From Gluconobacter frateurii (GTDB lineage: Bacteria > Pseudomonadota > Alphaproteobacteria > Acetobacterales > Acetobacteraceae): 64,000 nucleotides of DNA. Position 1 is the stretch's first letter; the number at the start of each line of letters is the position of its first letter. A model generated the notes under the pieces. That model was not told the DNA's origin. It saw only the letters and a list, made by a program, of their open reading frames with translations, and ran no database searches. The position numbers and the translations under genes are program-made. The stretch spans positions 310,001 to 374,000 of the forward strand of contig NZ_BEWN01000004.1 of assembly GCF_002723955.1 (NCBI RefSeq), given 5' to 3'. Positions 29,957 to 50,553 of the stretch are shown here, piece after piece.

Positions 29957-31249
29957 ATGGTCGCCACATTGAACCCCGCACAGGCCGAAGCAAACCGGCT
30001 GCTGGGTTCGCCTGCGACACACATTCTGCTGCGTGGCGGGTCTCGGTCGGGCAAGACGTTTTTGCTGGTGCGGGCCATTGTGATCCGGGCCGTCAAAGCC
30101 CCCGGTTCGCGGCACGGGATTTTCAGGCACCGGTTTAACGCCCTCAAAGCGACGGTCATCAACGACACCTTCAAGAAGGTGATGCGCCTCTGCTTTCCGG
30201 ATCTGCCCTACACGCTGAATCAGACTGACTGGTACGTTCGGTTTCCCAACGGCTCAGAGATTCTGTTTCACGGGCTGGACAGTTCGGATCGTACTGAAAA
30301 AATTCTCGGTCTGGAATTCGCCACCGTTTACATGAACGAGGCGAGCCAGATCAGTTATGCGGCACGAAACATGCTGCTGACGCGACTGGCACAGAGAACG
30401 TGCCTGGCGCCGAAAGAGTATATCGACGCGAACCCGCCCACGACGTCTCACTGGCTGTACGGGGTATTCGAGCGCAAGGTCGAACCGAAATCCGGGCAAC
30501 CGCTTCCGAACCCGGAGGCGTATGCGACGATGCAGATCAACCCGGACGCAAACCGGGATAATCTGACGCCGGAATATCTAGCCTTTCTTGAGGGGCTTCC
30601 TGAGAAAGAGCGGCAACGCTTCCTCCACGGCAACTACCAGACCGCCATTGAAGGCGCGCTCTGGACGCTGGATCGGATCAAGCGGGATACGCCTGTAGCG
30701 GATGCGAACCGGGAGGAAATCCTTTCCCGGATGCAGCGCATTGTCGTGTCGGTCGATCCGTCGGGATGTGCCGGCGAGGAAGACAAGCGCTCTGACGAAA
30801 TTGGCATCTCTGTTTGTGGACTGGACCGTGACGATGTGGGGCATGTTCTTGCCGATCTGACGGGACGTATGGGCCCTGCTCAGTGGGCGAAAGCCGCCCT
30901 TGATGCGCTGGATCTCTGGAAAGCTGACCGGATCGTTGCTGAAAAGAACTTCGGCGGCGCGATGGTGGAGAACACAATCCGTGCGGTTCGACCGACTGCG
31001 CCCGTGAAGTTGGTGACAGCATCCCGCGGCAAGGCTGCTCGGGCTGAGCCTGTGGCTGCGCTCTATGAGCAAGGCAAGGTTGTCCATCACGGGCGGTTTC
31101 CTGATCTGGAAGACCAGATGTGCCAGTTCTCAGCGGCTGGCTATCAGGGCTCGAAATCACCTGACCGGGCTGATGCGATGGTCTGGGGCATTACCGAATT
31201 GATGTTGGGGACAGATCCGGTTTTTGACGGGTCGTATAGTTGGGTCTGA
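29957..31249 (+). CDS. terL: Terminase large subunit
   Basis: A 430-residue protein. Walker A is GGSRSGKT (27-34), and the Walker B-like ATVYMNEASQ follows near residue 110. The C-terminal RNase H-like nuclease begins at VVSVDPSGC (first Asp) and includes DRIVAEKNFGG and SPDRADAMVWG. It is the ATP-driven DNA pump and headful or cos nuclease of the phage. Confidence 0.94.
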   Translation: MVATLNPAQAEANRLLGSPATHILLRGGSRSGKTFLLVRAIVIRAVKAPGSRHGIFRHRFNALKATVINDTFKKVMRLCFPDLPYTLNQTDWYVRFPNGSEILFHGLDSSDRTEKILGLEFATVYMNEASQISYAARNMLLTRLAQRTCLAPKEYIDANPPTTSHWLYGVFERKVEPKSGQPLPNPEAYATMQINPDANRDNLTPEYLAFLEGLPEKERQRFLHGNYQTAIEGALWTLDRIKRDTPVADANREEILSRMQRIVVSVDPSGCAGEEDKRSDEIGISVCGLDRDDVGHVLADLTGRMGPAQWAKAALDALDLWKADRIVAEKNFGGAMVENTIRAVRPTAPVKLVTASRGKAARAEPVAALYEQGKVVHHGRFPDLEDQMCQFSAAGYQGSKSPDRADAMVWGITELMLGTDPVFDGSYSWV

Positions 31250-38246: not shown

Positions 38247-39740
38247 GTGGTTAAAATTTATCAGGCTGGTTCGCTGAACACGATGGCGCTGACTGTCCCT
38301 GCCATGTATGTGCAGATTGTTCAGCCTCAGACCGTCATCAACGGCGTGTCTTCCAACCGCCTCGGCGTTGTCGGTACCGCCTCGTGGGGTGCTGTCGGCA
38401 AGCCGGTAATCATCGGCGGTATGGGCGACTATCTGGCAGCATTTGGCACCAAGCAGGCTCTGGCCACGAATATCGGCGTTGCTGTGAACGTGGCGCTGCT
38501 ACAGGGTGCCAGCGATTTCCGCTGCGTTCGCGTGACGGATGGCACCGACAAGGCAGCCACAGGGACGCTCGGAACAGTCGGGCTGACTGCGGTTTGCACC
38601 GGTGCGGCAGGCAATGCCATCACGGCAACGCTCGTTGCGGGATCGGGCGGGAATTACGTCCTGACGGTTTCTCATGCAGCACTTGGAACCTCCAGCTATA
38701 CAGGCATGACCTGGGCGGCTATCGCTGCTGCCCTTGTTGCAGACGCATCCGCTCTGGTGGTCGCGACTGTGCCAAGCACGGCGCCTGCGCTGGCTGCTGG
38801 GACTGTCACGCTCTCGGGTGGGGCTGATGGCGGCACGCCTACGACAGCCCAGTTTCTCGGAACTGACGGTACGGCGACCCGAACGGGCATGTATGCGCTG
38901 CGCAACACCGGGTGCGCGATTGGCCTTCTTGCTGGGCTGACAGACACGTCTTCGTGGACTTCTCAGCAGGCGTATGGCCTTGGTGAAGGTACGTACATGG
39001 TCACGTCGTTTGGCTCGGGAACACCCGTTGCCAACGCTGTGAGCGGGATCGCATCTGCTGGCGTGTCTGGTTCGTACTCCCTCAAAGCGATGCACGGCGA
39101 CTGGCTGTACTGGAATGACGACACGAACGGCGTGATGCTGTTGCCGCCGTCATTCTGGGCCGCGGGTGAGCTGGCATCGCTGTCTCCGGAACAATCCACG
39201 CTGAACAAGCAGCTTTCCGGGATTGTTGGCAGCCAGAAATCAGGCTTGGTTTCGACTGGGCAGGCGCTGACGTATTCCGACGCGGAACTGACGGCGCTGT
39301 TCGGGGCCGGGATCGACGTGATCGCCAATCCTTCTCCCGGTGGCTCGTACTGGTCGTGCCGTCTGGGGCAGAATACGTCTTCGAGTGCGTCGGTTAGCGG
39401 GGACAACTACACCCGTCTGACGAATTATCTTGGAGAAACTCTTGGCACAGGCATGGGCACCTATATCGGCCAAGTGATTAACGACAGCCTGTTCGCAGAC
39501 GTTCGCGCCACGCTTCTCGGTTTCCTGAAGGGGATGCTTGATGCGGGAATGCTTGGCCTCTACGGGGGAGCAATCCCTTACACGGTTGTTTGTGACACCT
39601 CGAACAACACACAGGACCGGACAGCGCTCGGTTATCTCCAGGCCGACGTAGCCGTCAGATACATGGGCATCGTCAAATTCTTCATCGTCAACCTTCAGGG
39701 CGGAACGACCGTCACTGTCACGACCAGCAGCGGGAGCTAA
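38247..39740 (+). CDS. Tail sheath protein
   Basis: A 497-residue protein from GTG at 38247. The N-terminal domain (VQPQTVINGVSSNRLGVVGTASWG) and the C-terminal domain (GMGTYIGQVINDSLFADVRATLLGFLKGMLDAG, RYMGIVKFFIVNLQGGTTV) fit contractile tail sheath proteins. This identifies the phage as a myovirus. It is followed by the tube gene 3 bases on. Confidence 0.88.
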   Translation: MVKIYQAGSLNTMALTVPAMYVQIVQPQTVINGVSSNRLGVVGTASWGAVGKPVIIGGMGDYLAAFGTKQALATNIGVAVNVALLQGASDFRCVRVTDGTDKAATGTLGTVGLTAVCTGAAGNAITATLVAGSGGNYVLTVSHAALGTSSYTGMTWAAIAAALVADASALVVATVPSTAPALAAGTVTLSGGADGGTPTTAQFLGTDGTATRTGMYALRNTGCAIGLLAGLTDTSSWTSQQAYGLGEGTYMVTSFGSGTPVANAVSGIASAGVSGSYSLKAMHGDWLYWNDDTNGVMLLPPSFWAAGELASLSPEQSTLNKQLSGIVGSQKSGLVSTGQALTYSDAELTALFGAGIDVIANPSPGGSYWSCRLGQNTSSSASVSGDNYTRLTNYLGETLGTGMGTYIGQVINDSLFADVRATLLGFLKGMLDAGMLGLYGGAIPYTVVCDTSNNTQDRTALGYLQADVAVRYMGIVKFFIVNLQGGTTVTVTTSSGS

Positions 39741-40483: not shown

Positions 40484-40656
40484 GCCGGTCCCCGCTGTTT
40501 CAGGAGCTGCTGTTTCTGGCAGACCACGGGATAGCGTGGGACGTGGCTAAAGGCTGGTCGAACGCCCGGAGAATGGCCGCGTGTGTGGCGCTCCGGGAAA
40601 TGAACGGCGAAGTGTGTGACTGGGACACCATGACGTTCCATCGGAGGGGCGGATGA
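40166..40656 (+). CDS. Tail assembly chaperone, -1 frameshift extended form
   Basis: The 0-frame ends GCA AAA AAC TGA. A -1 slip on A_AAA_AAC at 40474-40480 would join 40166-40479 to 40479-40656 and give 163 residues, adding LSRSPLFQELLFLADHGIAW... to the N-terminal part. The added frame has no start of its own near its beginning, and its stop overlaps the next gene by 4 bases (ATGA), as expected of a translated frame. This matches the lambda G/GT and myophage pattern. Confidence 0.82.
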
Positions 40657-41162
40657 GGCAGTTCAAAGACGTTTCATCTTTTCAGCAGTTCATGCGTGAG
40701 CGTGTGCTGCCCGCCCTCCCCGCTGCCGTCCATCGCGGCGTGCAGGATGGCGCAGATCGTATCAAGGTCGAGACGCAGGCACAGATTGGGCACTATCTGG
40801 ACGGGCCTGAGAGTGGGCTGCCGACTACCCCGCTCGCCGACAGCACGATTGATGACCGTATTCGGAAGGGATTTACCCCTGACGATCCCGGTCTGCGGAC
40901 TGGCGACATGCGGGACAGCTACGGCACGCGCGTGTCTGAGCCTTCCTTGCGCGTCCATGCGTCAATTGGCTCGGACGATATTAAGGCCGTCGTGTTCGAA
41001 ATGGGCCGATTGGAGCAAGCCAACTATCAGCCCCCTCGCCCCGAATTGGCCGTCGCTGCGCATCAGAATGAGGATCGCGTGGCTCAAGGGGTGGGTAAGG
41101 TTGTGGTGCGGGTGCTCAAGGGGCGCCCGCTTCCGAATGCAGTGGCAGATGAAGCGGAATGA
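40653..41162 (+). CDS. Minor tail/head-tail protein (HK97 gp10-like)
   Basis: A 169-residue protein (MRQFKDVSSFQQFMRERVLPAL...). The long N-terminal helix, then GLRTGDMRDSYGTRV and AVVFEMGRLEQANYQPPRPELAVAA, fits the gp10/HK97 minor tail family. It overlaps the frameshifted chaperone by 4 bases. Confidence 0.65.
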   Translation: MRQFKDVSSFQQFMRERVLPALPAAVHRGVQDGADRIKVETQAQIGHYLDGPESGLPTTPLADSTIDDRIRKGFTPDDPGLRTGDMRDSYGTRVSEPSLRVHASIGSDDIKAVVFEMGRLEQANYQPPRPELAVAAHQNEDRVAQGVGKVVVRVLKGRPLPNAVADEAE

Positions 41163-41169
41163 AAAGCCG

Positions 41170-41922
41170 TTATAGTCTTGGTTCAAAGACGCACTTTATG
41201 CCCATGGTCGTCTCGGATGGCCAGGACGTGCAACTGATTTTGGCGTACGGCCTATTCACAGTTAACGTTTCTCCTATGTCCGGCGCATCGTCCCCGCGCA
41301 TAAGCCCCAAATCGTTAGTGAACATTTTCTGATTGTCTTTAGAGGCTTCACTTCGGTCCCAAATGCCTGCAAAGTCCTCAACATTTCCAGCAAAAGTAAG
41401 TAGGTTAATAGGGTCAGCACGACTTCCTCTGAGAGTAACGCTTGTGACGTTCCCTGCTGTAGAACGATCAAACTCAACCATTGAGGCATCGTTAACGTGA
41501 CCATGAAGAAGTCCAAGCTTCCTAAACTCAACGTTCATGGTATAAAATGCCTCCGGCCTGTATTTACAGTCAGTATGATCGGCGAAATTTTTGCACTGAT
41601 ATAATTTTGCGTGATTTTGATTTTTCTTGCTTAGACTTTGGTTTAGGGAATAGTCGTATCTATCAATGAATGTTTGCGTGTTGCATGCGAACACTAAGTC
41701 ATGAGTGCTCTGATCTATTGCTGATAGGCACGATCCATCCGGCGCCGATGCGGGTACTTCTGGCGCTTCGGGCGACGTGGCCGCCATTGCATTGGCGGTG
41801 TCAGGCTTTGACGCAGCGGGCGCAGTCAAGGGTGAGGCAGAGGGGTCCGGTCGAGCGGCAATGACAAGGGCAACTGCGGCCACCCCGACGCACGCCAGCA
41901 TAACAACGTTAGTTTTGTTCAT
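41170..41922 (-). CDS. Exported hypothetical cargo protein
   Basis: A 250-residue protein starting MNKTNVVMLACVGVAAVALVIA, with GGAGGGG upstream of this ATG. One signal anchor or signal peptide is followed by an Ala/Pro-rich linker and a globular Cys-containing domain (LYQCKNFADHTDCKYRPEAFY). It is on the strand opposite to the tail operon, so it may be expressed in the lysogen. No family recognised. Confidence 0.65.
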   Translation of the reverse strand: MNKTNVVMLACVGVAAVALVIAARPDPSASPLTAPAASKPDTANAMAATSPEAPEVPASAPDGSCLSAIDQSTHDLVFACNTQTFIDRYDYSLNQSLSKKNQNHAKLYQCKNFADHTDCKYRPEAFYTMNVEFRKLGLLHGHVNDASMVEFDRSTAGNVTSVTLRGSRADPINLLTFAGNVEDFAGIWDRSEASKDNQKMFTNDLGLMRGDDAPDIGETLTVNRPYAKISCTSWPSETTMGIKCVFEPRL

Positions 41923-41997
41923 CCGCCCCTCCATTCACACTCCGTAACATGCCGGAGTTTGGGATGGAGGGAAATGGTTTAGTCTTTCTTCTCCACT

Positions 41998-42411
41998 TCA
42001 AGCCCCTCCGCACTCGTGCTCCGAATCAGGAAGCGTCCATGATTTCATCGTGCGAAGGTCGGTTGTCGTGTAGACCTTTCCTCGGTCATCGCCTGTCGGG
42101 CAGTCGGTCGGAAGCGCCACCAGACACATCATTACTCGATCGCCGGAATGAGCGCTGTCTACTTCAGGAAGCTGATCGTAGGAGACCTGATAACCGCCGT
42201 TGGTCAGAGCAACAGCGGAGCCGGATCCTGCAACCCATTGGTTATTGCCATCTGATAGGCGCTCTTCGACGGACTTGATGTGAGTAAAGACGCAGGTTCC
42301 GGGGCGCTTGGGAAGCCCTGGCTCACTTGGAGTAGTTACTGTCTGCGCCGCTGCGGCATCGCTCACCGAAAGTGCTGTTATTATTCCTATAAAAAGCAAC
42401 CAATGGCGCAT
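41998..42411 (-). CDS. Small secreted cargo protein
   Basis: A 137-residue protein. A clear signal peptide (WLLFIGIITALSVSDAAAA) is followed by a soluble domain with five Cys (TCVFTHIKS, MMCLVALPTDCPTGDD, a final C). The even spacing suggests disulphides in the periplasm. No family recognised. Confidence 0.65.
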   Translation of the reverse strand: MRHWLLFIGIITALSVSDAAAAQTVTTPSEPGLPKRPGTCVFTHIKSVEERLSDGNNQWVAGSGSAVALTNGGYQVSYDQLPEVDSAHSGDRVMMCLVALPTDCPTGDDRGKVYTTTDLRTMKSWTLPDSEHECGGA

Positions 42412-42542
42412 CGTTCTTACTCCTTGTGGGCTTCGTTTAGGGCTTCGGGGTCAAGTTGGATCAGGTGACGGATGGCTTTTGGGTGGGTAACGCGGGTTAG
42501 ACCGCCCCGTGATATCGGCACCGGCGTTGCGGGGCCGGCCAT

Positions 42543-43031
42543 TCACGTTGGTCCGCAAGCTCCAGCCTTATGGGCACCGTAAGTTGCCTGGGCTAATGTA
42601 TATTTTTCCCCAGCTGATGAGGATAATTGGTGGATTAGGCCCTTACAGGAGAATCCTGACATTTCAAGGTACTGTTTGGCCGACCGAACTGCATTTTCAT
42701 TCCAGTCTACAGTCAGGCTGTCCACCGCAACGGTAGCATCGGCTACTGAGTAACCCTCTCCTGCGTCAGATGATAACTGATGGATAAGTCCAGCGCGTGA
42801 AAAGCCCGTCATCTCCAAGTAATTTGTTGCGGATCTTACTGCATTGTTTTGTGCAGAAGTTAGGTTGGCTTGCCCCGAAATGGGAAATTTTTCGCTTTCA
42901 ATGTCTGAGCGCGGCTGTGCCGAGCTATAATTACTAAAGTTTCTTGTTGGAGAAACAAATTGTCCGATCACACCGAGACAAAATAGAGAAAAAAATACGC
43001 ACGAGGTGTATTTGAAGATTTTTTTTAGCAT
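42543..43031 (-). CDS. Ltp-like superinfection-exclusion protein
   Basis: A 162-residue protein. An N-terminal hydrophobic segment (SCVFFSLFCLGVIGQF) anchors two tandem repeats of about 43 residues. Each has the pattern NAVRSA-x-x-YLEM-x-GFS-x-x-GLIHQLSS-x-AGE-x-Y-x-x-A-x-A (63-105 and 113-155). This is the host-cell surface-exposed lipoprotein (Ltp) repeat, known from phage TP-J34 Ltp, which blocks DNA injection by other phages. The classic lipobox is imperfect here, so membrane anchoring by the helix is possible. Function by homology pattern. Confidence 0.8.
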   Translation of the reverse strand: MLKKIFKYTSCVFFSLFCLGVIGQFVSPTRNFSNYSSAQPRSDIESEKFPISGQANLTSAQNNAVRSATNYLEMTGFSRAGLIHQLSSDAGEGYSVADATVAVDSLTVDWNENAVRSAKQYLEMSGFSCKGLIHQLSSSAGEKYTLAQATYGAHKAGACGPT

Positions 43032-43271
43032 TAGAACACCTGTATTATGAGTGAAGATTATCTATTTCTATGTTACTAGAATGCATATATTATTAAAAAT
43101 CTCCTCTTCAATTTTGTATATGGGTGCCTATGTAGAACAGGCCATGCTTCGTAATTCATACTCCAGTACAAATGGCGCTACTCCTCCTCTCCCTCCAAAT
43201 ATTTTTGGATCTAGCTTTGGGGAATACCCTTCTCGATAGAGCAGATTCGGGTCAATGGCGGATGCTTGCGC
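43032..43271. other. AT-rich gap
   Basis: About 240 AT-rich bases between two minus-strand cargo genes. No supported gene; it probably holds the promoter of the Ltp-like gene. Confidence 0.35.
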
Positions 43272-43604
43272 CTACATTTCCATTGAAGGATCATTTTGTG
43301 CGTACTGGGCTTGCAAGATAAGAAGTTCTTGCTCAAGATTTTGTACTTGAGAACGCTGATGACGCAACTCGGAATACATCGCCTTGAACAGATTAGATAG
43401 GTTCTCGTTACCTTTCTGACCATCGAAAACTTCTCGTTCAAGCGCATCAAAACGAGCGGACGTATCAGAAAATGTTTCTTCAATTCGGCGCAATATCTCG
43501 GCAGTCAGCGTGATGCCACGTTTGGACGCCTCTCCCTCAAGACGCGCCCTTAGTGGGCCGCTGAGGCGAAGTTTGAACCATGTATCAGGAGCGGATTCGG
43601 TCAT
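43272..43604 (-). CDS. Arc/Mnt-like ribbon-helix-helix regulator
   Basis: About 110 residues starting MTESAPDTW. FKLRLSGPLRARLEGEASKRGITLTAEILRRIEETF is a ribbon-helix-helix domain like phage P22 Arc. The C-terminal half is a coiled coil (LRHQRSQVQNLEQELLILQ). In-frame starts further upstream exist. It is divergent from a second Arc-like gene across a region of ATGGTC/GACCAT repeats. Confidence 0.75.
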   Translation of the reverse strand: MTESAPDTWFKLRLSGPLRARLEGEASKRGITLTAEILRRIEETFSDTSARFDALEREVFDGQKGNENLSNLFKAMYSELRHQRSQVQNLEQELLILQAQYAQNDPSMEM

Positions 43605-43613
43605 GCTCCAATT

Positions 43614-43657
43614 ATGGTCAAAAATTACCTTGACGACCATGGGTAATAAATGGTCAT
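43614..43657. promoter_or_regulatory. Operator-like repeats between two Arc-like genes
   Basis: ATGGTC at 43614-43619, GACCAT at 43635-43640 and ATGGTC at 43650-43655, together with ATTACC (43624-43629) and its inverse GGTAAT (43642-43647). This dyad cluster sits between the divergent regulator genes and is a likely Arc/Mnt-type binding site. Confidence 0.6.
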
Positions 43658-43684
43658 GTTTTGCTCGTAAGCAACGAGGAGAGC

Positions 43685-43870
43685 ATGACACAACAAACCC
43701 ACTTCAAAATACCCATGCCGCCTGACGTCAGAGATTGGCTCGATAAGACGGCACCCAAGGCGCAGCGCAGCCGCGGCGCGCATGTGATCTTCTTGCTTCG
43801 GCAGGAAATGGAAAAAGAAAAGACGGAAGAGGCATTGCTTGGCGGCCTGCCCTCTTCCGTCTCCGAGTGA
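43685..43870 (+). CDS. Small Arc/Mnt-like regulator
   Basis: A 61-residue protein starting MTQQTHFKIPMPPDVRDWL, with GAGGAG just before the ATG. The first 45 residues form a ribbon-helix-helix (beta strand THFKIPMP, then two helices). It is divergent from the other Arc-like gene and 20 bases before the KilA-N gene it may control. Confidence 0.7.
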   Translation: MTQQTHFKIPMPPDVRDWLDKTAPKAQRSRGAHVIFLLRQEMEKEKTEEALLGGLPSSVSE

Positions 43871-43890
43871 ACCAGTGAAGGAACACGAAA

Positions 43891-44865
43891 GTGACGAATA
43901 ACACATCTCTGATCATTCTTTCCACTGCAATCCGTCAAGATGCGCAAGGCCGGTACTGCCTTAACGATTGCCATAAGGCATCGGGCGGTGAGCCGGGAAA
44001 ACGACCGGGCGAATGGCTCCGCAATGACCAGGCGCAGGCTCTTGTTGCGGAACTGACCGATGCGGAAAATCCCGCATCGCCCGTTTCTTCGGTGAAAGGC
44101 GGCTCTAATCAAGGCACCTACGGCTCCGAAGAACTGATCCTGGCCTATGCCCAGTGGATCAGCCCCGCCTTCCACGTTCAGTGCCTTCGCGCCCTCCTTG
44201 CTATGATGAAAGGCGAGGCGCCAGCCACCCAACAACCCTCACTCAATGACCGCCAGAGCAAGGCCATATCCATACTTCGCATAGCCGAGGACGAGGCTGC
44301 GGCTTTCATTCGCAAGCGCGTAAATGATGCGGTTCTCGTAATGCAGGGACATGAGGATCTGGTGACGGTGCCGACCCTATCGGGGAAGGTCACGCCCAAG
44401 CAGATGCGTGAGGCAGTCGGGCTGTTTCGCTCGCTCCAGTACGTCAACAAGCTGAGCGGGATGGACAAGAACAATGCACTTCTGTCCGCAAACCGGCAGG
44501 TCAAGGAAACAACTGGAATTGACCTGCTCAAGAACTCAGGCGCAACCCATCTGCTGGCTCATGAGACCGACCATCCTCTGACGCCTACTGCTATCGGCAA
44601 GCGTCTGGGCAATCATGGGCCGCAACGTATCAACGGTGTCCTGTCTTATCTGGGCTTTCAGACGAAGAAGAGCATCGGGAAAGCTGATGCGTGGGTACCC
44701 ACCTCCAAGGGTGAACCGTATGCTGTAATGGAAGATACGAACAAGAAGCACAGCGACGGAACGCCAGTCCGGCAGTTGAAGTGGAAAGCCTCAATCGTTC
44801 CTCTCATTGAGCAGGAGGTGAACGCCCCTCGCCCTTTCGCCAAGAAGCCGGAGGGAGTGTCATGA
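43891..44865 (+). CDS. KilA-N domain protein
   Basis: A 324-residue protein from GTG at 43891. The N-terminal KilA-N domain has IRQDAQGRYCLNDCHKASGGEPGKRPGEWLRNDQAQALV and TYGSEELILAYAQWISPAFHVQCLRALL. The C-terminal half has a second DNA-binding-like region (LTPTAIGKRLGNHGPQRINGVLSYLGFQ). Such proteins act as phage antirepressors or toxins. It overlaps the S24-like gene by 4 bases. Confidence 0.85.
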   Translation: MTNNTSLIILSTAIRQDAQGRYCLNDCHKASGGEPGKRPGEWLRNDQAQALVAELTDAENPASPVSSVKGGSNQGTYGSEELILAYAQWISPAFHVQCLRALLAMMKGEAPATQQPSLNDRQSKAISILRIAEDEAAAFIRKRVNDAVLVMQGHEDLVTVPTLSGKVTPKQMREAVGLFRSLQYVNKLSGMDKNNALLSANRQVKETTGIDLLKNSGATHLLAHETDHPLTPTAIGKRLGNHGPQRINGVLSYLGFQTKKSIGKADAWVPTSKGEPYAVMEDTNKKHSDGTPVRQLKWKASIVPLIEQEVNAPRPFAKKPEGVS

Positions 44866-45281
44866 GCGCGCTGGCGCTGGCGGGAGCCGCAGGGTCGAAG
44901 AACCGGTTCATGCGGATTGATCACAATGGTCTTTACCCCGAGCTTCGGCGCGGGGACTATGTGATCTGGCAGGAGGTTCGCGGCTTCGTTCAGGAAGGAC
45001 TGTACGTCGTGGCGAATGGTCCGTTCCAGAATGTGTATCAGGTCCAGAACTGCGGTGGGAAGCTGGCGCTACTCTGGCCTGATCGGGACATTGACCCGAA
45101 AACACGAGAGCGGAAGCCGGGGGTTGAGCCTCTGGAATACTCGCTGGAGGACTTTGCGAAGTTCTGCCTTGGGTTCGTGGTGGCTACCGTGAAGGTTCAG
45201 CACGAAGGGGCTTTTCTCGGGGGTGAGACTTTGAAGGGTCGCACCGCCCGAGCGCCTAAACGCAGCCTAGTCGCTGCATGA
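44862..45281 (+). CDS. S24-like protein lacking the catalytic Ser
   Basis: A 139-residue protein. MRIDHNGLYPELRRGDYVIWQEV lines up with the S24 peptidase core (GDSMxPxxxxGDxV), but the Ser position is occupied by Asn/Gly (HNGLYP), so self-cleavage is unlikely. No DNA-binding domain precedes it. It is translationally coupled to the KilA-N protein and may be its partner or a repressor decoy. The fold assignment is a pattern judgement. Confidence 0.55.
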   Translation: MSALALAGAAGSKNRFMRIDHNGLYPELRRGDYVIWQEVRGFVQEGLYVVANGPFQNVYQVQNCGGKLALLWPDRDIDPKTRERKPGVEPLEYSLEDFAKFCLGFVVATVKVQHEGAFLGGETLKGRTARAPKRSLVAA

Positions 45282-45288
45282 CTATGGA

Positions 45289-45310
45289 GCCGCCCTTCGG
45301 GGCGGCTTTT
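45289..45310 (+). terminator. Terminator after the KilA-N/S24-like pair
   Basis: GCCGCCC-TTCG-GGGCGGC-TTTT, 7 bases after the stop codon. Confidence 0.88.
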
Positions 45311-45498
45311 CAATGTTCAGCAACACACAATGCTAGCATTATTGTGCCAAAGAACGCGCCAACCGCCATAAAGGTCAGCCCACCACAAAGGTTGAATAGG
45401 GATAGCCACATGTGCAGCCCGGTGATTACGCAGACTAGTGCGGACCAGGCAAATATGACAGCGAGGGATACTTGAGAGGGGGAAAGGGTGTCTTGCAC
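45310..45498 (-). CDS. Small two-span membrane protein
   Basis: A 62-residue protein from GTG, with GGAG 7 bases upstream. Two hydrophobic helices (LAVIFAWSALVCVITGLHMWL and LTFMAVGAFFGTIMLALCV). It converges on the S24-like gene and shares its terminator region. Function unknown. Confidence 0.55.
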   Translation of the reverse strand: MQDTLSPSQVSLAVIFAWSALVCVITGLHMWLSLFNLCGGLTFMAVGAFFGTIMLALCVAEH

Positions 45499-45688
45499 GA
45501 CCGTGCTCCATAGTTAGTAACATAAGCGATATAGCACGTCTGAAATTGCCGTGCTGAGAGCGAAAAAAATGATGATGACCTGTGCTTTCTGACTGTAAAG
45601 CCGACACAAAGGGCGGCTTTATGCGTCTCCGCTCTCACCTTCCCGAAACCACAATCTGACAGTACGATCTTCCCTCATTCACGGAGAT

Positions 45689-46195
45689 GTGTTGCCAGCT
45701 ATGATTAAGAATATTCCCGGTTTTCTGAAACTGGCGCGCGCTTTCGACCTATTCGAAGAAGCGGCCATGCTCATACTAACCCTGTGCATTACCGCCGTGG
45801 CCTGCGTCGGATTGCTGCATGTTGTCGCGGCAGTCGTCCGCATGGTGCTGAGCACAGGACTGGAACCAACGAACCCGGTCTTGCTTCAAGCTCTTTTCGG
45901 CATGTTCTTCACAGTGCTGATTGCACTGGAGTTCAAGCACTCAATTCTGGTGATGCCAGGCGGTCAGGCACACAGCATGGCCCGGATGCGGTCGGTCCTG
46001 CTTATTGGCATGATGGCGACAGTCCGGAAGTTCATCGTACTCGACCTGAACGGCGTCAACGTGCAGGAGATGGCCGCGCTTTCGGGCGCAGTGCTGGCTT
46101 TGGGGATCGTTTATTGGCTCGTGCGCGGAAAGGTTACGCCGCCGCTGGTGGACGGATCAGGTGGTCTGCTTTCTGGGGCTGATGCCGATCATTGA
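45689..46195 (+). CDS. PsiE-like membrane protein
   Basis: A 164-168 residue protein (TTG at 45689 with GGAG at 5 bases, or ATG at 45701). Four membrane helices are visible (ILTLCITAVACVGLLHVVAAVV, QALFGMFFTVLIAL, SVLLIGMMATVRKFIVL, ALSGAVLALGIVYWLV), with EFKHSI after the second. The layout matches the phosphate-starvation-inducible PsiE family, of unknown function. It is an isolated plus-strand cargo gene. Confidence 0.72.
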   Translation: MLPAMIKNIPGFLKLARAFDLFEEAAMLILTLCITAVACVGLLHVVAAVVRMVLSTGLEPTNPVLLQALFGMFFTVLIALEFKHSILVMPGGQAHSMARMRSVLLIGMMATVRKFIVLDLNGVNVQEMAALSGAVLALGIVYWLVRGKVTPPLVDGSGGLLSGADADH

Positions 46196-46200
46196 GGCTT

Positions 46201-46219
46201 GCCGCCCTTCGGGGCGGTT
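46201..46219 (+). terminator. Hairpin after the PsiE-like gene
   Basis: GCCGCCC-TTCG-GGGCGGT with only a short TT after it, 5 bases from the stop codon. The stem is strong and the T run weak. Confidence 0.65.
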
Positions 46220-46254
46220 CTACCAAGCCGCAGCCGTGACGAAATAGAGGAAGA

Positions 46255-47031
46255 TCATGCGGCTAGATCTGCCATAAATTGCGCTCTCTGGCTCCAACGA
46301 ATTGTGCCTATTCCGTAGCTATCCAGCGCCTCGGGTACAGTGTTGGGAATCTTATGAGATCTATCATTCAGGATTGCATACAGCTTTGTATCAGAGTGAC
46401 CGGAAACGCGGCGCGTTTCCGCTGTGTCCATCCAACTCATAATCAAACTAGTAGACGAATTTTTTCCAGGAACGTTGATAGCTTGTACAATACGCTCCGA
46501 AGCATTCCTTGACTTTGGTATGACAAAGTCAAACCTGTGATCAAAGCCAGTCTTTCCAGTCAATTTTACGTTTGGCGTATAGCGCACATCCGCAGCGTCA
46601 AGCCAAGACGCAACGTCCTCCAAAAACACAGATTCAACTGTTGGAGAGGCCAGCATAAACATGTCTTTTACCGACAGAATAGCCTGCACAAGGTTATGCT
46701 TGCGAAGAGAAAAGTTCTGACGGTTAGCGGATATACGCAACTCGCCATTGTTTTCCTTGACACCAAAACCGTTCAGGATGGTGCGGAAGATCTCCTGTCT
46801 TTTTTCACCTCGACTCACAGGGCATCCGGACATCTCCAGATCGGCCAGGGTATCCCCCGCATCCGTTAAAATGTAACCGTCAGGCTCTGCGCGCGCATAT
46901 ATCTGTATGTAGTCGTTATGGTGATCGAGATATGGTGTCGTTATCTCAGTCCACTGCCCTACTGTTTTCAGAGCAGTTTTGTCACGCAGCCACTCCCAGT
47001 ACCCATCAACGAGTTGGCTAATTTCAGTCAT
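46255..47031 (-). CDS. DUF1828/DUF1829 protein (candidate two-gene system, second gene)
   Basis: A 258-residue protein. The N-terminal DUF1828 region (YWEWLRDKTALKTVGQWTEITTPYLDHHNDYIQIY, YILTDAGDTLADLEMSG) is followed by the DUF1829 region (GFDHRFDFVIPKSRNASERIVQAINVPGK). Its function is not established. It overlaps the upstream gene by 4 bases (ATGA), so the two are translated together. Conserved Asp and Glu residues in the C-terminal part would fit a nuclease-like fold, but this is unproven. Position in a cargo zone suggests defence or toxin-antitoxin activity. Confidence 0.8.
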   Translation of the reverse strand: MTEISQLVDGYWEWLRDKTALKTVGQWTEITTPYLDHHNDYIQIYARAEPDGYILTDAGDTLADLEMSGCPVSRGEKRQEIFRTILNGFGVKENNGELRISANRQNFSLRKHNLVQAILSVKDMFMLASPTVESVFLEDVASWLDAADVRYTPNVKLTGKTGFDHRFDFVIPKSRNASERIVQAINVPGKNSSTSLIMSWMDTAETRRVSGHSDTKLYAILNDRSHKIPNTVPEALDSYGIGTIRWSQRAQFMADLAA

Positions 47032-47474
47032 GTAAACAGCCCTCTCTTAAAACGGGGTGGTTCGGTTACGTTGCAGTACTCCAGAAACTCATTAAGGGTT
47101 TTCCAATGATCCTCAGTGTCTGAAAACATATGAGGATCGATGGGATGTGCCCACTTGTCTCCATATCCTTCTTTATAGACGTGAAGGTGCGGAGATGGAA
47201 TCTCTTGATCGTCTGGATTTCGATGGGGCGCGCCGCCATAATCAAGTCTGGCCAGGATGATGCAGCCGCGAGCCCGATTTTGCAGGGTGCCTTTGAGAAG
47301 GTTGAGCCTATGCCGCCTGATATCAAGGATAAATTTTTCTGATTTATCATCTGACAGTAGCGGAATTTCTATGCGAGTCTGGCCGGCTGACAGTTCCCAC
47401 TCGTGCTCATCTTCGCGAACCTTAGCCATATGAAATAGCAGGTCAGCCTCGTGCTGGCTAAGATCGATACTCAC
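47028..47474 (-). CDS. DUF6978-like protein (candidate two-gene system, first gene)
   Basis: A 148-residue protein. FILDIRRHRLNLLKGTLQNRARGCIILARLDYGGAPHRNPDDQEIPSPHLHVYKEGYGDKWAHPI is a strongly patterned core with several His, Asp and Arg residues, resembling the DUF6978 family. The C-terminus has LNEFLEYCNV. It is coupled by ATGA to the DUF1828 gene and is the first of the pair. The His-rich core may bind metal or nucleic acid. Function unknown. Confidence 0.7.
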   Translation of the reverse strand: MSIDLSQHEADLLFHMAKVREDEHEWELSAGQTRIEIPLLSDDKSEKFILDIRRHRLNLLKGTLQNRARGCIILARLDYGGAPHRNPDDQEIPSPHLHVYKEGYGDKWAHPIDPHMFSDTEDHWKTLNEFLEYCNVTEPPRFKRGLFT

Positions 47475-47610
47475 GTGAACTCCGGGGGATCATTCTGTTA
47501 CGAATGATTACTGAGCCACCCGGAAGAGTCGGGTCAATGGCGAGCCAATCAAGCGCCTTAGTCAGCATAAATGAAATTCGGGCACGCCCAAAGCCGGGTT
47601 GTGTTTTCTA

Positions 47611-47638
47611 GCCGCCCCTCACCGGGCGGCTTTTTTTA
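47611..47638 (+). terminator. Strong hairpin at the end of cargo zone B
   Basis: GCCGCCC-CTCACC-GGGCGGC-TTTTTTT. The T run is on the plus strand, yet no supported plus-strand gene ends just before it. Its last bases overlap the stop of the Mrr-like gene on the other strand. Confidence 0.75.
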
Positions 47639-48247
47639 TGGAGCAGTCCGCAGCCGTACACCGATACGAGACGCCATCTGTTCCGCGTGTCTTGTGAAGC
47701 CGCCCGGACAAATCACAACGGCATCATGCGCATTGTAATAGGACCGAGCTGCGTAAATCTCTTGAACGGCTCTATTCCCTGCTCTGCCTTTGTAGTTCTT
47801 GCACTGGACGGCAATGATCCGGCTTCCATTACGCAAGATTAGATCAGCGCCGTGATCCCCTGATGTAGGTGTCGTCGTAACGTGCCATCCGCGAGAGCGG
47901 AACACAGCGGCGCACTCAACTTCGAATGCTAAACCTGAGCGTGTCGCTGCTTTGACTAAGCCCGCGCTCACCGGGGCGTAAGTTGGCTGCTGACTGCCAT
48001 CTTCCCATGCTGCGATTGCCTTAAAGACCAAGAGTTCTGGGAATTCCGGCCACTTCTGAACGGTGAACTCCGCCCATGTGACCCGGCATGACCACCACAG
48101 CGCTTGTAGGGCAATGCTTGTAACTGCGAGGCCTATGGCAATGCCCAGAAGCGCGATTGCAACACAGATAGCGGCGATAATCGCCAGCAGCACGATCAGT
48201 CCAGTGCCCTCTTTCGCACCGCCAGTTCGATAACGGCGCCTAACCAC
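47636..48247 (-). CDS. Membrane-anchored Mrr-like restriction endonuclease
   Basis: A 203-residue protein. Residues 15-52 form one or two membrane helices (GLIVLLAIIAAICVAIALLGIAIGLAV). Residues 100-200 are an Mrr-type PD-(D/E)xK domain: Glu109/Glu111 in LAFEVEC, Asp135 in GDHGADLIL, and Gln148-Cys-Lys150 in VQCKNYKG, all present. Mrr-like enzymes cut modified or foreign DNA. The membrane anchor could place it where infecting DNA enters. Antisense to the tail operon. Confidence 0.85.
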   Translation of the reverse strand: MVRRRYRTGGAKEGTGLIVLLAIIAAICVAIALLGIAIGLAVTSIALQALWWSCRVTWAEFTVQKWPEFPELLVFKAIAAWEDGSQQPTYAPVSAGLVKAATRSGLAFEVECAAVFRSRGWHVTTTPTSGDHGADLILRNGSRIIAVQCKNYKGRAGNRAVQEIYAARSYYNAHDAVVICPGGFTRHAEQMASRIGVRLRTAP

Positions 48248-48267
48248 ATTTTCTTTCAGGAATCATC

Positions 48268-50553
48268 ATGAGCATTGAAGCCTATCAGATCGGCGTGTCC
48301 TTTGTCGCGGATGCAACGAAAGTTTCCGGGCCGATTGGGGAGATGCTGCGTGGAATGGACCGGATTCTGGAGCGCCAGAAGGACGTCAACATGGGGTTTG
48401 TCTCCATGGTTTCGTCCCTTGGTGGCGCTCGGCGGCTTGCTGGTGGGTTGGCGTCCGATCTCGAGCGGGCCGCGAAGGCAGCGCGGGATATTGCGTCTGC
48501 GTCTGGACGGTTTCGCCCAGCTTCCTCTGGCGGCGGCTCTTCGGCGGCCAGCGATCGAGCATCTTCTGCCCGCACTTCCAGTCGGCCTTCTCCCGCTGAA
48601 ATGGCAGCGGCGGCAACTGCTGCGGCTCAGCAGACAAACGCTCGTGGCCAACTGCTGCTTCCCGCGCCTGATCTGCGCCTTGCGTATGATCCATCGGCCA
48701 ATATGCGCACGTCTACGGCGGGAATGCCCGGCAACGGCGTTTTGGGAGGAGCGGGCATCCCGGTAGGATCACCTTACGGTCCTCCGCCGCCTTCACGACC
48801 ACAGCGTGGCCTGGCCATCATTCCGGGCGTCGGCGTAACCGAGGAAGGTATCGAGGACGAGCCCTTTTTTGAAGGCAGCGAGCCGCGGGAGTCCCGCTGG
48901 TCCAAGATGCGTAGAGGTGCCCGCACCGCCGTGAAGGCTGCGCGGACCGGATCAATGACAGGCGTGCGTGCGGTTGGGAACCTGCGCGTTCCCCGTGAGC
49001 ATCATGTTCTCACGTTGCCGGAGATGTTCGCTGGGTATCTCGGCTGGCACGTCCTGAGTTCGGGATTTGAACAGGCGGGAACGTACGACCAGACGTTTTT
49101 GTCCATGTCTGGCGACCCCAAGGTGAATATTGCCGCGTTGCGGACACAGGCTGACCGCATTCGGCGGACAAACCCGTATATCAACGCCCCGGATTCAGCC
49201 ACGCTTGTGTCGGAAGCTTATGATTTGTCGGGCGGACGGATGGGGGAAGTCCCTGTAATCGCTGATATTCTGAGCCGCGTTGACCGCTCTTTCCAGCTTC
49301 TTGGAAAGGATGGCCCCGCTGCGCTTAGAGAAAGCGCGAACTTTGTGCGGGCGCAGGATATCTCAAATCGGTTTTATAATCCTGCTACAGGACAGTTCGA
49401 TGCAGGGCGCGCCAATGCGTCCACGGATGCCGCTATGGGCATGATCTTTGCCAATCGGCAGTTCATGCAGGGAAAGAATTTCTTTCAGTTTGCCAGTTCT
49501 GCCGGCACAGCTGCTCAGACGATGAGCGATACTGGCATGTTCAACCTTGCGCACTTCATCGACATAAATCCTCGCAAGGCCGGCATGCAGGTCCGTTCAT
49601 TTGAGAACCTGTTCGGTGGAGATCATCCGCGAATGGAGCCTAAAGAACTTAGCTATTTCAAAAGTCTAGGCTTGATTGGTAAGGACGGAAGGTTTCGTGA
49701 CTGGCAGCGCGTGTCCACTGACCCCATCGGGTGGATTACGGACCATCTAGATCCATTAATGCCCAAGCATCCGGAGCTTGTCGGCCATATACAACGCATG
49801 AACGTTGGAGATTTAGCCAATGAGACTTACGGGGCAAGCGGGAATGTTGCTCGGCAGGCAGCCGCAGCTCGTAGAACAAGCGCTACAGCATCTATCCTTG
49901 CTCTAGAAAATGGCTCCAAAGCCGCGCAGCAGCGGACGGAAATATCATGGGAGCGCTTTGAATTCTCGCTGGGTCAGTTCGCGCAGGGACCGGGAATCAA
50001 AGTTCTGAACAGTCTGACCGATGCCCTCAACAACACGTCGGCATACATGGCGGCCCACCCTAATGACATGAGCCGCCTTGCCACCCAAGCTGGGGACTTT
50101 GCAAAGGGTATGGTTGGGGCCGCAACACTTATGAGTAAGGCGGTAGCTATTGTTCCAAGTTGGCTGTGGCCTGTCTTGCTTGGTGCCGCAGGAGGAGCGC
50201 GCGTCGGAGGGCCATGGGGCGCAGCAGCGGGCGCAACTGCGGGGGCGTCTTATAGCCTGTCTCATGGGGCTCTGAACCTTGACCATAAATACGGGTACGA
50301 CAACCCTAACTATCACCTGACGTGGAAGGATAAGCTTGATCCATTTCAGCTCTTCCATACGCCTGAAAAAGCAACGTCAGGCCAACCCATCCAAGTGAAC
50401 CTACAGATCGGCGGCCAGCAGGTGGCCTCCGTCCTGGTTCCTCACATTGAGGCCAAGATGACCTCAAATGCGCGGAAAGAAAGCCGCGCCAGCAACGGGA
50501 TGTATGATTCTTGGGCTGGAGCATCCCTGCCGGGGGTTAGTGGCGGCCGCTAA
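48268..50553 (+). CDS. Tail tape measure protein
   Basis: A 761-residue protein, the longest in the virion module. The N-terminal part is helical and Ala/Arg-rich, with a low-complexity Ser/Pro stretch (75-115). A hydrophobic Gly/Ala-rich stretch follows near 635-670 (PSWLWPVLLGAAGGARVGGPWGAAAGATAGASYSL). It ends with QIGGQQVASVLVPHIEAKM, found at the C-terminus of many tape measures. It sets tail length and may help DNA pass the host membrane. Confidence 0.85.
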   Translation: MSIEAYQIGVSFVADATKVSGPIGEMLRGMDRILERQKDVNMGFVSMVSSLGGARRLAGGLASDLERAAKAARDIASASGRFRPASSGGGSSAASDRASSARTSSRPSPAEMAAAATAAAQQTNARGQLLLPAPDLRLAYDPSANMRTSTAGMPGNGVLGGAGIPVGSPYGPPPPSRPQRGLAIIPGVGVTEEGIEDEPFFEGSEPRESRWSKMRRGARTAVKAARTGSMTGVRAVGNLRVPREHHVLTLPEMFAGYLGWHVLSSGFEQAGTYDQTFLSMSGDPKVNIAALRTQADRIRRTNPYINAPDSATLVSEAYDLSGGRMGEVPVIADILSRVDRSFQLLGKDGPAALRESANFVRAQDISNRFYNPATGQFDAGRANASTDAAMGMIFANRQFMQGKNFFQFASSAGTAAQTMSDTGMFNLAHFIDINPRKAGMQVRSFENLFGGDHPRMEPKELSYFKSLGLIGKDGRFRDWQRVSTDPIGWITDHLDPLMPKHPELVGHIQRMNVGDLANETYGASGNVARQAAAARRTSATASILALENGSKAAQQRTEISWERFEFSLGQFAQGPGIKVLNSLTDALNNTSAYMAAHPNDMSRLATQAGDFAKGMVGAATLMSKAVAIVPSWLWPVLLGAAGGARVGGPWGAAAGATAGASYSLSHGALNLDHKYGYDNPNYHLTWKDKLDPFQLFHTPEKATSGQPIQVNLQIGGQQVASVLVPHIEAKMTSNARKESRASNGMYDSWAGASLPGVSGGR

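Follow-up and report, generated by a model that had tools for sequence, protein, structure and literature searches.

What do two short genes that overlap at an ATGA, lie in the cargo of a prophage and encode proteins of DUF families do for their carrier? The question is raised by a stretch of 64,000 nucleotides from Gluconobacter frateurii (contig NZ_BEWN01000004.1, positions 310,001 to 374,000), hereafter called the window, for which a first-pass annotation had proposed an undescribed defence or toxin-antitoxin system. The coordinates and the ATGA coupling given there for the two genes, called A and B in this study, were found to be exact (Table 1). In our analysis the pair is read as a toxin-antitoxin-like, abortive phage-defence module in which A would be the toxic effector and B its antitoxin and sensor, and we consider the chances of this reading to be about evenly balanced. 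The conserved pairing, the defence association and the toxin-antitoxin-like asymmetry uphold the defence or toxin-antitoxin part of the earlier proposal, whereas its novelty and the enzymatic role assigned to the C-terminal part of B did not stand.

Table 1. Positions of the pair and its surroundings in the window.
Feature	Position	Strand	Remarks
Cargo block, missing from phiKX1, amid two conserved tail-region genes	41160-48267	.	Ltp-like, KilA-N, PsiE, B, A, Mrr-like
Gene B (DUF1828 N-terminal half + DUF1829 C-terminal half / PDC-M24B)	46255-47031	-	258 aa, ATG start, putative antitoxin + sensor
ATGA overlap, stop of A / start of B	47028-47031	-	
Gene A (DUF6978 / PDC-M24A)	47028-47474	-	148 aa, GTG start, putative toxic effector
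63 bp upstream of A, co-mobile with the pair, presumed promoter/ribosome-binding region	47475-47537	-	Edge of DNA homology to pAOF1
Mrr-like restriction endonuclease domain protein	47636-48247	-	Mrr_cat 7.6e-22; separate gene, outside the module

The domain assignments made from the letters of the sequence were borne out by Pfam, in which A matches DUF6978 (PF22398, E 1.1e-41) and B matches DUF1828 (E 1.6e-28) followed by DUF1829 (E 2.1e-28). Neither protein had a match close to any cut-off in NCBIfam, and a match of B to GMP_PDE_delta (0.0029, under the cut-off) was taken as chance. Both A and B behave as real genes, since their dN/dS values against the copy on an Acetobacter orientalis plasmid are 0.12 and 0.034, respectively. 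A is present as a single copy in the 3.3-Mb source genome (contig 4). A consensus scan for a sigma-70-like promoter before A found none, the counts not being above those of shuffled sequences.

The claim that the system is undescribed fails at the level of the family, because the pair has an entry, PDC-M24A/B, in PADLOC-DB 2.0.0 (2023). A matches the PDC-M24A model PDLC04538 (E 3.1e-57, residues 4-147) and B the PDC-M24B model PDLC04539 (E 2.3e-103, residues 3-257). With two adjacent proteins matched over nearly their full length, the window pair is a member of PDC-M24, and no difference from it was seen. PDC-M24 itself is a phage-defence candidate; a search of the open-licence PMC literature found no functional test of it, and the names PDC-M24A/B were absent among the matches listed. 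PDC systems are described as stemming from a 'guilt-by-embedding' study (PMC12988326), and embedding may be the reason for the listing of PDC-M24. Such candidacy proves little, because PDC-S04 and the prophage-borne PDC-M63AB are reported to show no defence activity in the native host (PMC12409345). In PMC13092281, DefensePredictor is reported to have linked five DUFs to defence for the first time, among them DUF1829; the latter came in through DS-6B, which in the validated system DS-6/HipAD accompanies a HipA-type kinase. The likeness of that system to the present pair is the occurrence of DUF1829 in the presumed antitoxin; its toxin is described as a kinase and its partner protein as DUF3037-DUF1829, whereas the window combines DUF6978 with DUF1828-DUF1829 (PMC13092281).

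The prophage setting suggested for the pair was confirmed by a terminase-like gene and by tail genes resembling those of Komagataeibacter phage phiKX1. Among annotated terminase large subunits, the best match to the gene at 29957 reaches 50.6%, and the phiKX1 tail sheath corresponds to 38256-39698 (63%). The subsequent phiKX1 genes map up to about 41159 and the gene after those to 48268-50550 (43%). The window gene concerned, 48268-50553, is read by us as the tape-measure gene; its phiKX1 homologue is annotated as hypothetical. The homologues of 40653-41162 and 48268-50553 are only 16 bp apart in phiKX1 and 7.1 kb apart in the window, which therefore carries a block of 7.1 kb at this place with the pair in it. 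Two neighbours had been claimed for the pair; the Mrr-like gene does adjoin it, but the Ltp-like gene (42543-43031) lies 3.2 kb off and other genes intervene. For the Ltp-like protein, families of superinfection exclusion in phages were matched (phrog_15667, 3.6e-45). In the Mrr-like protein, which may be membrane-anchored, the nuclease domain is preceded by a long N-terminal stretch that by eye is hydrophobic. The cargo also includes a PsiE-family gene (45689-46195), whose homologues are found with 72-91% protein identity in three related genomes; within 11-12 kb around the three PsiE places inspected, none of 12 other tested window proteins was found. A short palindromic terminator-like element at 47602-47643 has many near-identical short matches in related genomes.

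In the collections of named plasmids and phages, the nearest copy of the pair found was that of the Acetobacter orientalis plasmid pAOF1, with protein identities of 84% for A and 94% for B. The DNA common to the window and 20.8 kb of pAOF1 is restricted to 46254-47537 (85%) and comprises B, A and the 63 bp upstream; judged from this alignment, the pair is one transferable unit of a bare 1.28 kb. The Mrr-like gene is not a part of the mobile unit, because it does not accompany the pair on pAOF1. In the PLSDB table the A gene of pAOF1 (L012:9555-10001) is not annotated as such, and two short frames are given instead. The G+C content of the pair is 48% against 55% for the window, which is not extreme since it corresponds to the 10th percentile of equal-sized window pieces. 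In 59 related genomes, several of which contain PsiE matches, no match longer than 40 bp was found inside the pair (best five candidate places scored per genome). Within the phylum to which the window belongs DUF6978 is rare, being above the cut-off in 3/299 genomes, and DUF1829 matches were found in 4/398 genomes.

A lack of conservation of the pair, named beforehand as fatal to the proposal, has been excluded. Close alignment of B yielded 373 relatives in the genome collection, from which the best-scoring 80 were retained, so that the fractions given for these loci are valid for that clade only. They belong to many bacterial phyla and include two archaeal records (L093 and L115), both with B and without A. 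Using a profile of A, this gene was found directly upstream of B in 72 of the 80 loci (best 80 of 373), in pieces at four of them (L099, L100, L109 and L113). A -4 overlap was found in 67/81 relative loci measured; this measure chooses the start codon of B nearest to the stop of A, by which short distances are favoured, and counts near-identical viral copies separately. In all 18 phage and plasmid loci fetched, A lies at least partly upstream of B (L017 and L020 being fragments), and an integrase is the next gene after B in eight (L006, L007, L009, L010, L015, L016, L021 and L022). Further carriers of the pair are the Halorubrum virus Humcor1 and a plasmid of Haloarcula. In the Lactobacillus prophage Lj965 an annotated superinfection exclusion gene is located two genes past the pair, and the window block holds a gene of similar kind. 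No relative was recovered when viral contigs were scanned with the single protein A or B.

The two genes differ in how often each is found alone. When viral contigs were scanned by A alone, 18 loci were obtained; about 13 are distinct (copies being L132/L133, L136-L139 and L143/L144), and B adjoins A in 18/18. The scan by B, which meets the same contigs, gave 30 loci, made up of 22 full-length B proteins, all with A, and 8 DUF1828-only proteins, none with A. In the phylum of the Nitrospira MAG L060, DUF6978 was found in 13/198 genomes (11 above the cut-off) with B adjacent in 13/13; among these A, one is only a piece joined to another protein, and a second has diverged beyond the reach of the A profile. 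An effector not occurring without its partner, as is characteristic of type II toxin-antitoxins, was thus seen at 18/18 and 13/13 A loci, with the exception of L005, where a sub-threshold DUF6978 match (21 bits vs the cut-off of 29.6) stands without B. B was found without A in 7 of the 79 testable genome loci (from the best 80 of 373), all seven with HsdR downstream; L077, the record of which begins 7 bp before B, was omitted from this count, and L096 shows a remnant of A by eye. A hardly ever occurring alone and B sometimes occurring alone is the pattern expected of a toxin-antitoxin pair. In three viral loci (L159, L161 and L174), however, A and B are convergent, end to end and not co-transcribed, though still paired.

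In the same 198 genomes, DUF1828 was found at 30 places in 27, of which 13 have a profile-found A and 17 do not. By our own reading, the latter include two close B proteins (L201 and L207), four places with a small H-x-H protein directly upstream (L215-L218), nine members of a different family with DUF1828 at the end (L220-L227 and L230) and two places with no evident partner (L210 and L219). At L215 the upstream protein matches DUF6978 below the threshold (5.8e-4). A small H-x-H protein also precedes the diverged B of L129, and this protein and those of L216-L218 are without a match to any PADLOC model and reach the cut-off of no Pfam family. The DUF1828 half only, covering about 112-147 profile positions and accompanied neither by A nor by DUF1829, was found on viral contigs L033-L039, L162, L175 and L176, the proteins of L033, L034, L036 and L038 being close kin. 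These solo proteins are possibly decoy antitoxins or remnants, and they can be regarded as a candidate phage counter-measure.

Genome neighbourhoods, which the earlier proposal had named as a check, showed type I restriction-modification (R-M) operons, in which many of the relatives are lodged. With home-made HsdS and HsdR profiles, sought anywhere upstream or downstream on the same strand up to about 4.3 kb, 40 of the 80 loci (best 80 of 373) were found to have HsdS upstream and 42 to have HsdR downstream; 36 have both, 46 at least one of the two and 34 neither, some of the 34 being located on short contigs. Among loci with more than 2.5 kb on both sides, 29/56 have HsdS upstream and HsdR downstream. 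The 36 loci between HsdS and HsdR contain A and B in 30 cases and B alone in six. In the PADLOC scan of neighbour genes (called by a longest-ORF rule, up to two on either side, with proteins trimmed to 330 aa), counted per single model, one HsdS model was found in 32/142 upstream genes and one HsdR model in 32/140 downstream genes. The 127 control genes, taken from the same loci at more than 5.5 kb, gave one specificity subunit, two type I methyltransferases and no REase_I among the matches listed. Matches to further defence families, among them mad3 (4), Kwa and pAgo, were obtained for these distant genes too, and hence the loci are defence-rich in general. An Abi_C protein is located between B and HsdR in L042, and an AbiJ-type protein ahead of B in L117.

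The source genome gave no HsdR_N match, and 9 of the 14 control genomes have one. The R-M link is therefore a feature of the relatives and not of the window copy, and an R-M-linked trigger is unlikely in the window. Across the 18 phage and plasmid stretches no gene is annotated hsd, many of the neighbours being labelled 'hypothetical'. Toxin systems connected with such operons have been described: the known toxin-antitoxin DarTG2 sits between hsdS and hsdR in the RRDM island protecting E. coli (PMC12255303), and PrrC is reported as R-M-linked and activated by a phage anti-restriction factor (PMC2610378). The relatives would resemble DarTG2 in having a toxin module between hsdS and hsdR (36/80, best 80 of 373) and PrrC in having one linked to an hsd operon, whereas the R-M operon that surrounds those modules does not surround the window copy. 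Neither DarTG2 nor PrrC is known to have a Pfam domain in common with the pair. If A is toxic, the pair would represent another module type among the toxin systems lodged in type I restriction operons.

In A, the His/Asp/Arg core that had been noticed in the sequence is strongly conserved. R76, N86, D88, H96 and H98 are invariant in 64/64 close relatives aligned, and D78 and H84 are nearly so, giving the motif R-x-D ... H-x-N-P-D ... H-x-H; in 18 more diverse sequences three His and F are invariant. In the more distant Streptococcus phage copies L009, L021 and L022, the H-x-H of A is changed to R-x-N and D168 of B to N, and these represent a lineage with both sites changed. The AlphaFold2 model of A has an alpha+beta fold (pLDDT 91.2, pTM 0.87). 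No PDB or viral-model match was found for it by Foldseek at E <=0.001, and the profile search of PDB sequences gave nothing for A. The best VIA-align result, the OspA sheets (Z 5.2), was treated as noise.

The translation-inhibiting toxin TumE (DUF6516) was considered as a possible relative of A. Two of the 14 broad A homologues, both haloarchaeal, match Pfam TumE (PF20126), namely L011 (0.0028) and L014 (2.9e-5, above the cut-off), the Haloarcula one of the two scoring 24.4 bits against the curated cut-off of 23.4. The window A has no match to TumE, DUF6978 alone being reported with an E of up to 5. The profile-profile comparison of A with TumE gave a probability of 0.8-2.1%, and column-shuffled controls reached 3.3% (60 trials; 11 TumE proteins only). 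Since this comparison, made with 11 TumE proteins, was not significant and did not exceed the shuffled controls, our initial equation of A with TumE was reduced to a hint, and the kinship is treated as a lead only. In PMC10584680, TumE is presented as a validated toxin that inhibits translation, with RNase activity suspected and unproven, lying mostly downstream of partners that are diverse antitoxins. In the plasmid TumE genes inspected by us, it was first in the unit in 6/6, as A is in the window. The pair shares with TumE-TumA a small effector, a two-gene unit and, by eye, an R-x-D...H-x-H type pattern, and differs from it in its partner, B being DUF1828+DUF1829, with no HTH family at E up to 5, in place of a DNA-binding winged-helix or RelB-like protein. 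The type of antitoxin is, however, a weak criterion, because diverse antitoxins are allowed for TumE (PMC10584680).

For B, the predicted model (pLDDT 92.7, pTM 0.64) shows two different halves. Residues about 130-258 are predicted to adopt the PD-(D/E)XK fold, as found in AF1548 (Z 11.7), PspGI (11.5) and Can2 (11.1); in the comparison of residues 132-254 with 1y88 (Z 11.7, rmsd 3.2 over 110 residues) the core of this fold is present in the predicted structure. Residues about 11-131 resemble InvB, which is a secretion chaperone (Z 8.3, 94 aligned), and PA14_16140 (Z 8.2, 110 aligned); at this Z the resemblance is possibly due to chance. E138, D139 and D168 are conserved in >90% of 67 close relatives. 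In 19 broad relatives D168 is mostly kept and the position of the (D/E)xK strand is variable, with QAI, RVI, NAI, KTL, RTI, NFA etc. The earlier suggestion that the C-terminal domain, described there as acidic, could be an enzyme is thus not supported, because the nuclease fold is predicted but its catalytic (D/E)xK position is not conserved. The profile search of B against PDB sequences gave only chance-level beta-lactamase rows.

From these features we infer a toxic A that acts on RNA and is inhibited by B, together with a phage trigger and a protective outcome. A would be a small alpha+beta effector whose Arg/Asp/His/Asn site most likely cuts or modifies RNA, leading to a stop of translation. 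B would be produced along with A through translational coupling and would keep it inactive. The DUF1828 domain of B, with its likeness to type III secretion chaperones, may provide the partner-binding fold, and the DUF1829 domain, a nuclease fold without conserved (D/E)xK, would lend itself to the sensing of DNA or of a nuclease complex. On infection of the lysogen by a second phage, B would be lost or altered, A would be freed and growth would stop before the phage matures. In many other hosts, the pair is part of a type I restriction operon, where it occupies the place between hsdS and hsdR also known for DarTG2.

The position in these operons could also be explained differently. B, with A, might be a subunit or regulator of restriction enzymes and not a toxin-antitoxin; the nuclease-fold domain of B would then dock on HsdR or DNA, A would modify the complex or its product, and the partner nuclease in the window would be the Mrr-like neighbour. 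The 36 of 80 loci lying between HsdS and HsdR (best 80 of 373), the B-alone loci with HsdR downstream in 7/7 and the Mrr-like gene adjoining the pair on the same strand are consistent with such a function, and B may have a role of its own in restriction since it is found without A in seven loci, all with HsdR downstream. We nevertheless consider this explanation rather unlikely. In 34 of the 80 loci (best 80 of 373; some contigs short) neither HsdS nor HsdR was found, the 18 phage and plasmid stretches have no annotated hsd gene (many neighbours 'hypothetical'), the Acetobacter plasmid pair has no Mrr-like gene, and the source genome is without an HsdR_N match. A separate explanation is a nuclease pair, with B as an active enzyme, either nicking or of the PD-(D/E)XK type, whose active site would be unusual, and with A as cofactor; it draws on the predicted fold match of residues about 130-258 to AF1548, PspGI and Can2 (Z 11.1-11.7) and on the retention of E138, D139 and D168 in >90% of 67 close relatives. 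The variable (D/E)xK strand and the change of D168 to N in the three Streptococcus phage copies make this explanation very improbable.

The pair might, on the other hand, be an addiction module which merely stabilises the prophage, the plasmid or the R-M operon and has no antiviral effect. The pairing and the asymmetry are equally expected of such a module, and the occurrence on plasmids and prophages as a bare 1.28-kb mobile unit is in line with it. This interpretation appears doubtful to us, as the concentration in R-M operons, the listing as a defence candidate and the superinfection-exclusion gene close by in one prophage fit defence better.

The abortive phage-defence reading can be extended to a broader scheme, in which a general-purpose suicide switch is combined with R-M wiring, superinfection immunity of phages, a new kind of antitoxin, solo-DUF1828 decoys and a wider family; that all of this holds together is improbable in our estimation. 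Following the pattern of PrrC and DarTG2, hosts would build the switch into their type I restriction operons; phages would carry the pair for superinfection immunity. In the antitoxin, a dead domain of the restriction-nuclease kind would be joined to one resembling a chaperone, and a solo DUF1828 of a phage would act as a decoy antitoxin, silencing A once B is disabled. The family may be wider than catalogued, because the H-x-H partners of distant B proteins have no PADLOC match and no Pfam match above the cut-off.

PDC-M24 is widespread, occurring in many bacterial phyla, haloarchaeal elements, plasmids and prophages. For this family, our analysis turns a pair of DUFs into an assignment of roles, with A as the likely effector, B as its likely restrainer and R76, H96 and H98 as candidate key residues. 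Two further arrangements were observed among the relatives. In L199, a C-terminal piece of A is fused in frame to a long protein that by eye looks like the DUF262 type (GmrSD-like). In L207, B without A is located directly 3' of a HEPN protein and a gene that by eye is nucleotidyltransferase-like, which is the layout of an MNT-HEPN toxin-antitoxin.
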